A stretch of DNA of 37,795 nucleotides from Anaerolineales bacterium (GTDB lineage: Bacteria > Chloroflexota > Anaerolineae > Anaerolineales > Villigracilaceae). Below are positions 4,575 through 37,745 of this stretch, piece after piece. Both the position numbers and the translations under genes were made by a program. The stretch spans positions 1 through 37,795 of the forward strand of contig CAKKRM010000112.1 in NCBI GenBank assembly GCA_919902735.1. The letters are read 5' to 3'. The notes beneath the pieces were generated by a model, which saw nothing but the letters and a program-made list of their open reading frames with translations, did not search any database and had not been told where the DNA came from. Position 1 is the stretch's first letter; each line of letters begins with the position of its first letter.

Positions 4575-4699
4575 CATATTAACTGATGTTACGCACCGTC
4601 CCGACACTGGCGCCGCGCGCCAGTGCGGTGAGGTTTGGGCTACAAACCAGCTTGATTTACGAGAACCTTCGGGACGTTTCGCGTAAGATGACATATTAA
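4575..4699. mobile_element. MITE-like element, copy A, with 8-bp target duplications
   Basis: The element spans 4583-4691 (109 bp) and is bounded by the direct repeat CATATTAA at 4575-4582 and 4692-4699 (a ninth base, A, also matches). Its ends are imperfect inverted repeats: left CTGATGTTACGC and, read inward on the other strand, right TCATCTTACGC. The right half holds AACCTTCGGGACG. An internal perfect hairpin (4605-4613 with 4617-4625) is absent from the relative at 37655-37737. No reading frame is present, so movement would need a transposase supplied from elsewhere. Confidence 0.75.
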
Positions 4700-9188: not shown

Positions 9189-10508
9189 TCAACGGCGGGC
9201 ATTGGGATTGGAAGAAGCCTTCGGCGCGAAGATATCCGCGCTGAGTTTGAAACCAGCCGCTTCGAGTCGCGGCGTAAAGTTGGGACGAATACCCGTGGCA
9301 TTTACCTCGCCTAAAACTTTTCCATCCTCGGTTACCCCCGTCTGGTTGAATTTGAAGATGTCGGTCAGGACGATAATTTCGCCTTCCATGCCCGCCACCT
9401 CGGTCACTGCCGTCACTTTGCGCTGACCATCCTTCAAGCGGGTTTGCTGGACGATCAAATCCACCGCCGAGGATATTTGCTGGCGCACCACTTTGAGCGG
9501 CAAATCCATGCCTGCCATCAACACCAGGGTTTCGATGCGGGAGATCGCATCCCGCGGCGCATTGGCATGGACAGTGGTCAGGGAACCATCATGCCCGGTA
9601 TTCATGGCTTGCAGCATATCCAGGGCTTCGCCGCCGCGCACCTCCCCCACCACAATGCGGTCGGGCCGCATCCGCAGCGAATTCTTTACAAGGTCTCGAA
9701 TCGAAACCGCGTTATGCCCTTCCGAACTGGCAGGCTTGGTCTCCATCCGCATCACGTGATCCTGTTGAAGTTGTAACTCAGCCGCATCTTCAATGGTAAT
9801 AATGCGCTCATTCTCAGGGATAAACCCCGACATGACGTTCAGGAGGGTGGTCTTGCCCGAACCAGTGCCGCCGGAAATGACGATATTAAAGCGCGCTTTT
9901 ACACAGGCCTGTAAAAAGTCTGCCATCTGCCTGGTCATTGAGCCAAAGTTGATCAGTTCCTCCACTTGCAATTTATCTTTGCGGAATTTGCGGATCGTGA
10001 TGGAGGGTCCATCAATCGCAACAGGGCGTACGACGGCATTGACGCGCGAGCCGTCGGGAAGGCGCGCATCCACGGTTGGGGAATCAAAATCTACGCGCCG
10101 TCCGAGCGGGAGGATAATGCGTTCGATCACACGGATCACATGATCGTCGTCATCGAATGCAATATTGGTTTTGGAAAGCTGTCCCTTTTTTTCCACGAAG
10201 ACCTTCTTCGGTCCGTTCACCATGATCTCCGAAACGTCGGGGTCATCGAGCAGGGATTGAATCGGGCCATAGCCGAGCAAGTCATCCAGAACCTGGTCAA
10301 ATATCTGCTTGCGGAGGTCTTCCGGCAGCTTTAGCTTCGTCTGCTCATAAACATGCATGATATTTTTTTGGAGAAAGGCATTGCGTTCCCCGGCAGGGAT
10401 TCCCTCCATTTCCACGGCACGCAGTAAATTATCTGAAAGGTATTTTTTCAGGCGTAACAGATCCTGGCTGGTAAGGCTTTTTGGAGCAGCGGGTACGGGA
10501 AGGGTCAT
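9189..10508 (-). CDS. CpaF/TadA-type secretion ATPase
   Basis: A 439-residue hexameric-type ATPase of the type II/IV secretion superfamily, CpaF (Tad/Flp pilus) branch. The N-terminal domain contains LLGYGPIQSLLDDPDVSEIMVNG. The ATPase core has Walker A GGTGSGKT (213-220), followed by the Asp/Glu box ITIEDAAELQ and Walker B/His region RIVVGEVRGGEALDML, then MNTGHDGSLTTVHAN. All catalytic motifs are intact. The ATG at 10508 was chosen because it overlaps the upstream stop as ATGA. Normal partners TadB/TadC, prepilin and peptidase are not next to it; the neighbours are a CpaE-like protein and two histidine kinases. It ends the long minus-strand series. Confidence 0.92.
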   Translation of the reverse strand: MTLPVPAAPKSLTSQDLLRLKKYLSDNLLRAVEMEGIPAGERNAFLQKNIMHVYEQTKLKLPEDLRKQIFDQVLDDLLGYGPIQSLLDDPDVSEIMVNGPKKVFVEKKGQLSKTNIAFDDDDHVIRVIERIILPLGRRVDFDSPTVDARLPDGSRVNAVVRPVAIDGPSITIRKFRKDKLQVEELINFGSMTRQMADFLQACVKARFNIVISGGTGSGKTTLLNVMSGFIPENERIITIEDAAELQLQQDHVMRMETKPASSEGHNAVSIRDLVKNSLRMRPDRIVVGEVRGGEALDMLQAMNTGHDGSLTTVHANAPRDAISRIETLVLMAGMDLPLKVVRQQISSAVDLIVQQTRLKDGQRKVTAVTEVAGMEGEIIVLTDIFKFNQTGVTEDGKVLGEVNATGIRPNFTPRLEAAGFKLSADIFAPKASSNPNARR

Positions 10509-10801
10509 TCCTTTATTTCCTCTTGTTCGCCGCCGACGGGCATTACCCAAACGATCTGGGATCGCTGCACAGCCATGAATGGGGCGGTATATAAAATCTC
10601 CTCCCCTGCGCCCAAAATATTGACATTCGTCATTGCGAGAAAAGCCTCATCACGTTCCAACTCATTTTTGAAGCGCTCTCCCTGCCGCACGTGTACAAAT
10701 CCACGCATGAGGTGGGTTGTGGTTTGGATAAGGCAGGAAACAGGCAATTTCGTGACGATGTCTGTATAGTACTTGCCTTTCTCATCATATTCTATGGTCA
10801 T
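10505..10801 (-). CDS. Small protein of unknown function between cpaE- and cpaF-like genes
   Basis: A 98-residue soluble protein with alternating hydrophobic residues that suggest a small beta-rich fold (CLIQTTTHLMRGFVHV, then SQIVWVMPVGG). It has no membrane helix and no recognised catalytic motif. Its general pattern, including a late IVWVMP strand, resembles the 80-residue protein at 26547-26789 ([14 protein letters not shown]), a weak likeness judged by eye. The ATG at 10801 is preceded by GGAG eight bases away. It is translationally coupled to the CpaF-like ATPase through an ATGA overlap, so a role with that ATPase is likely but unproven. Confidence 0.75.
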   Translation of the reverse strand: MTIEYDEKGKYYTDIVTKLPVSCLIQTTTHLMRGFVHVRQGERFKNELERDEAFLAMTNVNILGAGEEILYTAPFMAVQRSQIVWVMPVGGEQEEIKE

Positions 10802-10844
10802 GACAGGTCTCCAGTTTGATGTGGGTAAAGCAAATATCACGGGC

Positions 10845-19331: not shown

Positions 19332-19443
19332 GTATCTTCTCATTTTCTTGGGGATGGAGGCACACCGTCCCGAAGGTTTGAGCGGCTCAACCAGGTTTTT
19401 TGAGGAAACCTTCGGGACGTTTCCCTTCTTTTTGAGAAGATAC
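19332..19443. repeat. MITE-like palindromic element, copy C
   Basis: The ends GTATCTTCTCA (19332-19342) and TGAGAAGATAC (19433-19443) are perfect 11-bp inverted repeats. Inside are ACCGTCCCGAAGGTTT and AAACCTTCGGGACGTTT, the same core as the elements at 4583-4691 and 37655-37737, but the outer ends differ. A short AAAAAAG direct repeat borders it, too simple to count as proof of transposition. It abuts the T-run of the jag operon terminator. Confidence 0.6.
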
Positions 19444-24321: not shown

Positions 24322-25635
24322 TTACCCTGCTGCCAATCTCAACGTCGTTTGCAACAAAACATTCGCCCCATTCACACAATCTTCCCATTTGGTGAATTCA
24401 CGCGGCGAGTGGCTTGCGCCATCCACCGATGGAACGAAAATCATACCCACGGGGCACAAATCCGAGAGGGATTGTCCATCGTGGCCTGCGCCTGATGAAA
24501 GCGAAACATGCGTCAGGTTCAAATTATCACAGGCAGTTGCGAAAGCAGTGCAAACATTCTCGTTCATGATACTGGGAGAATGTTTGCCAAGAAATTCAAC
24601 TTTTAATTCCAGACCGAAACGCGCCGCTTCTTTTTCCGCCAGATCGAGCAGGGCTGCATTGAGCCGATTGAATTCATCTTCATTTGGTGAACGGAACTCA
24701 AGCGCAAGGTCTACGCGTGCTGGCACAATATTGAACGCGCCAGGCGCAAAATCCATTTTGCCGACATTCACCACGCAATTCGGAAAATCCTTCATCACCA
24801 TCTCACGCGCCGCAAGCGTAAACGCGCTCGCACCCAATGAAGCATCGAGGCGGTCATCCATCGTGGTGGAGCCTGCATGGTCGGCGCGCCCAAGGAAAGA
24901 CAAACGGTACGACCAAATGCCAACGATGGCAGAGACAATGCCAATCTCAATTCCCGCCCGCTCGAGCCGCCTGCCTTGTTCGATGTGAAGTTCCAAATAC
25001 CCCGCCAGCGAATCCTTCGGGCGCGCCGCACTCAACATGCTTGCGTCGGATAAGCCCGCCCGCATCATTCCTTCAATCAGATGTTCACGTCCGCCGCGCG
25101 GGGAGGTTAAATCTTTTTGACTGAGATGACCAGCCAGCGCCGCACTTCCAAGCAGACCGACCAACGTGCCTTCTTCATCTGTGAAGTCTATCGCTTCAAG
25201 ATTTAACTTCAAGTTGATTCTGTTTTCTTTGACAGTTTTCAACACTTCGAGAGCCGCCATCACGCCAAGCGCGCCATCGAACCGCCCGCCGTTGGGAACG
25301 GAGTCAAGGTGCGAGCCGATTAACAACGTCATTGCGAGGGGCGTTCGTTGCCCCGAAGCAATCTCCTGTCGAGAGTTGAGGATTGCTTCGTCGCCTTTCA
25401 GGCTCCTCGCAATGACGGGGAGAAACGCTGAATGATTCCCTGCGCCGTCCGTGCGAAATTCCAGGCCAGATTTTTCGATCTCTTCTCTAAACCATTTGCG
25501 CACGGCGAGATGGGCTTCACTGAAAGTTGGGCGGTTCACGCCGCCATCTGCTGTAGCGGCGATGGATGCCAGTTGGGTAAACGAATCAAGCATACGGTCG
25601 GGGTTGATGCGAAGGGTGGAAAATGATTCAGCCAT
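24322..25635 (-). CDS. M20-family amidohydrolase (N-carbamoyl-amino-acid hydrolase / allantoate amidohydrolase type)
   Basis: A 437-residue binuclear zinc hydrolase. The metal motif IGSHLDSVPNGGRFDG (His109, Asp120), IDFTDEEG, ELHIEQG, GRADHAGSTTMDDR and SGAGHDGQSL match the hydantoinase/carbamoylase branch, which cleaves N-carbamoyl amino acids, allantoate or ureidoglycolate. The exact substrate is unclear, but adenosine deaminase next to it would fit purine or ureide breakdown. Residues 74-103 are encoded by a palindromic repeat that interrupts the strand before IGSHLDS (separate entry). GGAG lies nine bases before the ATG. Confidence 0.88.
   Translation of the reverse strand: MAESFSTLRINPDRMLDSFTQLASIAATADGGVNRPTFSEAHLAVRKWFREEIEKSGLEFRTDGAGNHSAFLPVIARSLKGDEAILNSRQEIASGQRTPLAMTLLIGSHLDSVPNGGRFDGALGVMAALEVLKTVKENRINLKLNLEAIDFTDEEGTLVGLLGSAALAGHLSQKDLTSPRGGREHLIEGMMRAGLSDASMLSAARPKDSLAGYLELHIEQGRRLERAGIEIGIVSAIVGIWSYRLSFLGRADHAGSTTMDDRLDASLGASAFTLAAREMVMKDFPNCVVNVGKMDFAPGAFNIVPARVDLALEFRSPNEDEFNRLNAALLDLAEKEAARFGLELKVEFLGKHSPSIMNENVCTAFATACDNLNLTHVSLSSGAGHDGQSLSDLCPVGMIFVPSVDGASHSPREFTKWEDCVNGANVLLQTTLRLAAG
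25328..25416. repeat. Palindromic repeat inserted in frame in the M20 gene
   Basis: Arms 25328-25363 and 25381-25416 (36 bases each) share GTCATTGCGAGG at their outer ends and CGAAGCAATC at their inner ends when one is reverse-complemented; the middles differ. This is the familiar CATTGCGAGG...GAAGCAATC repeat common in many genomes, normally between genes. Here it encodes about 30 residues (VIARSLKGDEAI...RTPLAMT) within a zinc hydrolase without breaking the frame. Confidence 0.8.
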
Positions 25636-37291: not shown

Positions 37292-37651
37292 ATGTTGGAT
37301 TTAAATTCTGTAATGCTAGGTTCGATGCAGCCCCTCGTGTTGGCGGCTTTCTATGAAAAGGTGTTTGGAAAGCCCGCAGACATGGCCGATCAGGAAAACG
37401 GCTTTTGGGGATGGCAGGTTGGAAATGGGTTTGTAGGAATCCTGACCCATTCCGAAATGAACGGTAACGCAAAGGAACCTGGGCGCGTGATGATCAATTT
37501 TGCAACCCCACAAGTCAAAGAGGAGTTCGAGCGCATCAAAGCCCTCGGCGGCGCGGTCATCAAAGAGCCGTATGAGATGGGTGGCGGATTTATCGCAACC
37601 CTGGCTGACCCCGATGGAAATTATTTCCAATTGATGAATCCGATGGGTTAG
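37292..37651 (+). CDS. VOC-superfamily (glyoxalase/bleomycin resistance-like) protein
   Basis: A 119-residue single vicinal-oxygen-chelate domain: LAAFYEKVFGKPADMADQ, GRVMINFATPQVKEEFERIK, and a closing FIATLADPDGNYFQLMNP typical of the family. Metal ligands of glyoxalase I are not fully recognisable, so function may be binding rather than lyase activity. AAAGGATG precedes the ATG. It is bracketed by two unrelated MITE-like elements. Confidence 0.85.
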   Translation: MLDLNSVMLGSMQPLVLAAFYEKVFGKPADMADQENGFWGWQVGNGFVGILTHSEMNGNAKEPGRVMINFATPQVKEEFERIKALGGAVIKEPYEMGGGFIATLADPDGNYFQLMNPMG

Positions 37652-37745
37652 TTACTGATGTTACGCACCGTCCCGAAGGTTTGACTGGAAAGCAAGCCTG
37701 AATTACGAGAACCTTCGGGACGTTCTGCGTAAGGTCAGTTAGTTA
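37647..37745. mobile_element. MITE-like element, copy B, with 8-bp target duplications
   Basis: The element at 37655-37737 (83 bp) is bordered by the direct repeat GTTAGTTA at 37647-37654 and 37738-37745. Its left end CTGATGTTACGCACCGTCCC is the same as that of the element at 4583, and its right half AATTACGAGAACCTTCGGGA is nearly the same too. The right end, read inward on the minus strand, is TGACCTTACGCA. The left duplication contains the TAG stop-codon context of the VOC gene (TAG at 37649-37651). Confidence 0.78.

Follow-up and report, generated by a model that had tools for sequence, protein, structure and literature searches.

The M20-family amidohydrolase gene of an Anaerolineales genome carries a palindromic CGTC-type REP dimer, and the observation that this repeat is read in frame within the gene was confirmed. 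We consider it highly probable that a dimer of this mostly intergenic kind landed in a tolerant loop of the enzyme, where it would be near-neutral and would be eroding in frame under purifying selection. The DNA analysed, called the window below, is a stretch of 37,795 nucleotides belonging to a genome of 4.26 Mb in 356 contigs.

The repeat within the M20 amidohydrolase gene

The ORF at 24322..25635 (minus strand; 437 amino acids and a stop) matched the Pfam families Peptidase_M20 and M20_dimer in a profile search, each above the cut-off, and its score of 307.5 bits against TIGR01879 (curated cut-off 204) places it in the hydantoinase/carbamoylase subfamily. The solved L-N-carbamoylases 3n5f and 8apz were among the structural homologues of its product, and 17 of the 18 loci of its named relatives came from Chloroflexi/Anaerolineales MAGs, the remaining one being labelled Acidobacteria. 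The GSHLDS motif (residues 107-112; 25300..25317, minus strand, as for the following residues) was invariant in an 18-row alignment (A1), as were His109 within it (25309-25311), Asp120 of FDGALGV (25276..25278), Glu154-Glu155 of TDEEG (25171..25176), His217 of LHIEQG (24985..24987) and His409 of ASHSPREF (24409..24411). We take His109, His217 and His409 to be the residues usually assigned to the M20 metal site, His109 being a zinc ligand; Asp120 is presumably a metal ligand, as is generally held for the M20 family, and Glu154-Glu155 presumably the pair of catalytic base and ligand. In all six M20 orthologue pairs dN/dS was between 0.07 and 0.13, which indicates that the gene is maintained under purifying selection.

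The original prediction had placed a palindrome at 25328-25416. It is present, and the full element proved slightly wider: a dimer of two inverted REP units, 91 nt long, at 25327..25417 of the minus strand, with its CGTC ends outward. It supplies one base of codon 73 and residues 74-103, the residue range foreseen, which agrees with the coordinates of the ORF; the predicted location just ahead of GSHLDS, the intact frame and the preserved catalytic motifs were likewise borne out, the ORF being open and the motif residues invariant. In gene orientation the first unit (25381..25417, minus strand), recognised by the unit pattern and the inverted repeat, reads VIARSLKGDEAI. A spacer of 17 nt (25364..25380, minus strand), the commonest length among distinct dimers (11 of 38), separates it from the second, inverted unit (25327..25363, minus strand), which reads to ..TPLAMT and of which an eroded homologue occurs in the relative L077. 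The unit pattern CATTGCGAG..GCAATC was matched at 25330-25363 of the plus strand and at 25381-25414 of the minus strand, and the 37-nt arms of the dimer are 76% complementary. Folding of the 91-nt element gave z -6.7 as DNA and -45.2 kcal/mol (z -6.3) as RNA, and in neither case was any of 200 shuffles as good. The peptide encoded at residues 74-103 is VIARSLKGDEAILNSRQEIASGQRTPLAMT, with the GSHLDS strand directly after it. The spacing from AGN to GSH is 20 residues in plain M20 orthologues and 42 in the window, so that the 30 repeat-encoded residues took the place of about eight native ones. Judged from these sequences, the insert is a replacement of native residues and no clean insertion.

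In the AF2 model of the protein the mean pLDDT was 60.2, residues 76-100 falling below 50 (low confidence); strands 68-72 and 103-109 flank the insert, and the fold matches that of the solved L-N-carbamoylases. We infer from the flanking strands and this weak model that the insert forms a solvent-exposed surface loop. A seven-residue strand spans about 20 angstroms in textbook geometry, by which the loop would lie about 20 angstroms from His109. The enzyme is presumably active and the insert near-neutral.

Dispersal of the repeat and its copies in other genes

The unit pattern matched 185 times in the genome of the window, where the reversed control gave no match, and all 57 genomes of the genus contained it, with between 1 and 246 units per genome and a single match of the reversed control over the whole set. 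A sample of 88 distinct places including the window (38 dimers and 50 single units) was drawn from 100 of the 185 listed units and from further places. GTCATTGC was carried by 116 of the 119 units with distinct surroundings, preceded by C in 85, by T in 30 and by G in one. The CGTC ends lay outside in 38 of 38 distinct dimers, whose spacers measured 14-18 nt. The RNA fold of individual units comprised 8-15 base pairs (8-9 pairs in 29 of 119), and the three bases after GCAAT were CTC in 77, CCC in 26 and CCA in one of the 119 units; these bases are here called the tail, the tail start being our interpretation of the description in the available part of PMC3733652. The supposition that such palindromes are normally intergenic fits the sample, in which 79 of 88 places were without a demonstrated gene, although this count is not a place-by-place proof.

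An Rfam search of the window returned no family that reached its gathering score. A lone CTCGCAATG/CATTGCGAG half site, possibly due to chance, was seen at 10631 within the ORF 10505-10840 (reading ..DEAFLAMT..). The window also holds a second repeat family with the core CTTCGGGACGTT, at 4577-4687 and 37649-37733 (copies 79-93% alike), with a weaker copy at 19374-19430.

Nine of the 88 sampled places were in frame within genes, and five of these were shown by alignment to solved homologues to be extra. In the window M20 protein, query 67 to 98 stands against 88 to 97 in 8apz, the stretch being a gap; the corresponding pairs were 181 to 220 against 171 to 182 in alanine racemase (L130), 319 to 358 against 293 to 296 in MoeA (L108) and 134 to 172 against 147 to 150 in proline racemase (L205), and the RACo-like protein L146 showed a 17-residue gap in its solved homologue at the repeat. 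The other four cases are less firm: in the UvrD-like helicase L154 Pfam domains flank the insert on both sides, in the heparinase-like L127 it lies upstream of the matched domain, in the glycosyltransferase L135 downstream of its domain, and L148, with a repeat in frame, has no Pfam match. We did not count as coding those repeat-spanning ORFs of at least 120 amino acids that lacked domain support or a further check (e.g. L095, L110, L196, L200, L204), nor those located upstream of a likely start (L104, L129, L150, L190).

For alanine racemase, 24 of 30 loci, corresponding to 22 distinct genes, could be read by motif (L260 and L261 duplicate L248 and L247; L235, L242, L249, L250, L258 and L259 were unreadable). 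One loop, after THLANSE/THFANSE, contained a repeat or remnant in eight of the 22 readable genes: a repeat in the own-genome gene L232 and in L233, L237, L238, L239, L241 and L243, and a remnant in L240. Plain loops, measured in the same way, had 12 to 23 residues. The gene of the window's genome reads the repeat as VIAR and the other six as SLR(G/A), that is, in two reading frames. Among real insertions the VIAR frame had looked over-used, and the idea of a special coding frame was dropped because dimers are open in each frame (42-49%; single units 86-96% forward and 50-78% backward) and alanine racemase uses a second one.

In MoeA the loop after PVILG was occupied by CGTC repeats in the genome of the window (L262) and in three others (L263, L270, L272), and L275 has a possible CGTC remnant there. 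A different dispersed palindrome occupied the loop in L266, with three matches at E ≤3.1e-4 at two further places in the same genome (G016); among the non-CGTC inserts of this loop, dispersal was shown for L266 only. The insert of L264 matched itself alone, the next match having E 0.058, and was not retained as a dispersed repeat. This loop of MoeA is hypervariable, and L264, L267, L269, L273 and L274 have other sequences in it that are palindrome-like or tandem.

A mobilising enzyme for the CGTC repeats was not found, and to our knowledge no enzyme that moves them has been described. Y1_Tnp genes occur in 55 of the 57 genomes of the genus, and in the genome of the window one Y1_Tnp ORF lies near a REP dimer. 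A unit was present in three of 21 stretches with a Y1_Tnp ORF of about 550 amino acids (L096, L221, L224) and in one of 32 with another Y1_Tnp, while the remaining 18 and 31 stretches were without a unit and did not show the REPtron arrangement. In other genomes, the comparison stretches around the genes for M20, alanine racemase and MoeA held units in 2, 5 and 1 of 29, respectively, mostly inside the gene itself. Against these controls we do not claim a RAYT link or a dedicated transposase; a weak association between Y1_Tnp genes and the repeat may exist. The Y1_Tnp domain at G000:C13:3079-3435 and its orthologues (e.g. L208-L226) form part of the ORF of about 550 amino acids, which was found in about 50 of the 57 genomes among the matches listed and which seems to be a resident protein of the HUH type and not an insertion sequence.

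Origin and fate of the insert in the M20 loop

Loop spacing was read in 28 of the 29 M20 orthologues examined. From AGN to GSH it was exactly 20 residues, with no repeat, in 21 of the 28, and 19 and 18 in L027 and L038; the same plain spacing of 20 occurs both within and outside the genus. The deviating rows were the window (42), L010 (31), L011 (30) and L018 (22), and L017, with a spacing of 20, is yet repeat-derived. A single short unit is read in frame in each of L017 and L018, and in L083 a stretch as long as a unit, with one core base changed, occupies the nucleotide position of the window insert; the repeats of all three use the window's reading frame and lie no more than 9 nt from its position. 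The nearest relative, L077 (91% identity over the tree columns), retains the right half of the window insert in eroded form. The original prediction had proposed to look for the stretch in homologues and for the insertion in relatives: repeats or their remains were indeed found in these four genes, whereas most orthologues are plain, and the stretch was missing from the best three of 18 solved homologues, as aligned.

The insert of L010 is an unrelated dispersed palindrome of another family than the CGTC repeat, with 24, 28 and 10 copies outside the M20 gene at E ≤1e-3 in G003, G001 and G000, respectively (45, 39 and 20 matches at E up to 1). What would have spoken against the original prediction was a comparable stretch, not derived from a repeat, in homologues of unrelated organisms. 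The longer relatives mostly contain the same or another repeat and represent recurrence, not that adverse case, the insert of L011 being the exception. At L011:1711-1770 (G001) the M20 loop is 10 residues longer with no detectable repeat; no other match was found below E 0.18 in the three genomes searched, so that it found no support as a dispersed repeat and not every insert in this loop is a known one. In a second M20 loop, just before LEAIDFTDEE, L077 and L011/L081 share a 24-nt in-frame piece (SRTE(P/L)SRS, 8 residues), which the window lacks even though its nearest relative is L077; in about 1.05 Mb of loci scanned it was present only in these genes, and local recombination is a possible source of the sharing.

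A maximum-likelihood tree was built from 35 M20 proteins with the loop removed (leaving out L033, L037 and L094, the latter two without the N-terminal part, and L078, L080, L081, L082, L084, L086, L087, L088, L091 and L093, whose genes duplicate G-handle loci). The plain loop was present in 28 of the 35 rows, and loop type required five changes on the tree. The window grouped with L077 (99/92) and L017 with L018 (100/100), and L083 was placed elsewhere. For groups chosen after inspection of the tree, the AU test rejected a single clade of all five CGTC carriers (p 5e-5) and a clade of the window, L077 and L083 (p 2.8e-4), but did not reject the window and L077 with L017 and L018 (p 0.29) or with L010 and L011 (p 0.32). 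Since the latter two clades were not rejected, only two independent CGTC arrivals in the M20 gene are firm, as a minimum; three are counted under parsimony, and the unrelated repeat of L010 reached the same loop in a further event. These tree-based counts cover the M20 gene alone, not alanine racemase or MoeA.

The two clades that were not rejected would also accommodate a single ancestral REP insertion in the genus followed by lineage-specific loss, erosion or conversion. Erosion demonstrably happens, as in L077, and in the available text of PMC3767692 the authors of the Rickettsia study preferred common origin with later divergence. However, the clades that include L083 were rejected in the post hoc tests, the repeat of L010 is from an unrelated family, the alanine racemase repeat is read in two frames, and the five changes in loop type count against a single insertion. 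Moreover, the identical spacing of 20 residues in 21 of 28 rows, inside the genus and beyond it, means that the losses would need to have restored the native loop. We therefore regard one ancestral insertion as unlikely. That the palindrome acts as a nucleic acid (an mRNA hairpin, an RNase III site or a gyrase site), the peptide being irrelevant, seems quite improbable to us: its RNA fold is strong and intergenic REPs are thought to work as RNA elements, according to the available part of PMC3733652, but the big hairpin is not preserved in the M20 gene (one arm is gone in L077, and single short units are all that L017 and L018 hold), whereas the reading frame is preserved in all three. An adaptive functional extension, such as a substrate gate, a dimer contact or a partner site, could explain why the insert is kept at least partly in two species (those of the window and L077) in a gene under purifying selection; close relatives, however, have inserts of unequal length and sequence that come from different repeat families, half of the insert is gone in L077 and the same repeats are found in unrelated enzymes, which makes this explanation very unlikely. 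Repeats do cause misjoins, and the assembly consists of 356 contigs, but an assembly artefact or a decaying pseudogene is hardly credible given that the sequences on either side form a single gene, read in one frame without interruption for 437 codons, with dN/dS of about 0.12, and that inserts of the same kind occur in other assemblies (L017, L018, L077, L083).

For the landing of a mostly intergenic dimer in a tolerant loop, the following course of events may be proposed. A dispersed CGTC-type REP dimer would land in the hairpin loop between the NHSAFLP strand and the strand of His109, displacing about eight native codons. The frame would stay open through the dimer because stops are missing from most single units and from about half of the dimers in a given frame. 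As the loop would be at the strand end far from the metal site, the 30 extra residues would be tolerated and near-neutral, and the insert would then decay through in-frame change and deletion while the gene remains under purifying selection. Repeats have landed in the same M20 loop in several species, and MoeA and alanine racemase have likewise each received them in a single loop. The loss of about eight native codons means that plain cut-and-paste with target duplication fails to explain the join. A wider reading, which we put forward tentatively and at somewhat less than even probability, is that the intergenic palindromes of the genus are a standing source of protein loops: the loops of M20, MoeA and alanine racemase would have been repeatedly overwritten in frame by repeats, which in M20 and MoeA belong to unrelated dispersed families, and the replacement of the native M20 loop would suggest a joining process that exchanges loop DNA for repeat DNA (template switching or conversion, for example) and in which tolerance of the fold acts as the filter.

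Comparison with known systems

Rickettsia and Wolbachia are the bacteria in which protein-coding palindromes are best known; here they occur at numerous loci of Chloroflexota MAGs, obtained from groundwater and from other samples, and the in-frame palindrome phenomenon, familiar above all from Rickettsia, is thereby extended to a new bacterial phylum. New are the phylum, the unit geometry and the finding that a single loop has received unrelated repeats. Because loops in all three states, plain, filled and eroded, coexist among related genomes, it can be asked how CGTC repeats move, which protein loops tolerate a peptide of foreign origin and by what route inserts decay. Where the annotation of such a genome shows a loop of unusual sequence, that loop may be a translated repeat. 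Among the matches listed from the open-licence literature there was no report of CGTC repeats in Chloroflexota coding genes and no publication on CATTGCGAG.

In the available sections of Di Nocera 2013 (PMC3733652), CGTC REPs are defined and attributed to Proteobacteria, Chlorobi, Bacteroidetes, Spirochaetes and Thermotogae, not to Chloroflexi; the Chloroflexota repeats lie beyond these five phyla. Both sets share a CGTC/TGTC tag at one end, a short palindrome, head-head dimers and a mostly intergenic location, and in both some units are in frame within genes, including UvrD/REP helicases. The same sections report CGTC units at about the same site in recB of two Xanthomonas species, list intragenic REPs in O. 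terrae and Thauera, and link no transposase to CGTC REPs. The terminal CGTC is often TGTC or CCTC there, and the tag is carried by 116 of 119 units here; dimers are predominantly head-head there and in all 38 cases here. In contrast, the described stem of 8-9 bp with a loop of 4-5 nt differs from the 8-15 pairs seen here, and the unpaired 3' CCA from the CTC and CCC tails that make up 103 of our 119. As tag and dimer orientation agree and stem and CCA tail do not, the window repeats are CGTC-like and appear to fall outside the four described families, going by the descriptions of those families. RAYT-mobilised GTAG REPs and REPtrons resemble them in being REP dimers spread through the chromosome, as far as the available text goes (PMC3733652), and differ in the tag and in that no Y1 transposase is a consistent neighbour here.

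The likeness to Rickettsia palindromic elements suggested in the original prediction was upheld. In the available text of PMC3733652, RPE-4 and RPE-6 of R. conorii are already classed as CGTC REPs (CGTC-4 and CGTC-1, respectively). The RPE-1 type (Ogata 2000, 2002; Abergel 2006), as described in the accessible part of PMC2229807, comprises palindromes translated within functional enzymes, and a guanylate kinase bearing such an element is enzymatically active; these elements, likened here by description, are longer (105-146 bp) and belong to obligate intracellular hosts. In R. japonica, according to the available part of PMC3767692, RPE-4, RPE-6 and RPE-7 share ATGAC, a motif also contained in ..AATGACG of our repeat; they sit at exposed sites, replace one another and were ascribed by preference to common origin, hotspots not being excluded. 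There and here, repeats are found in frame in conserved proteins, inside pre-existing ORFs whose frame is not broken, with different repeat groups at the same orthologue site; solvent exposure, reported there, is inferred here. All the compared Rickettsia orthologues carry the insertion (PMC3767692, available part), whereas most M20 orthologues here are plain and one bears an unrelated repeat family. The plain loops and the unrelated family at one M20 site add evidence that such landings recur.
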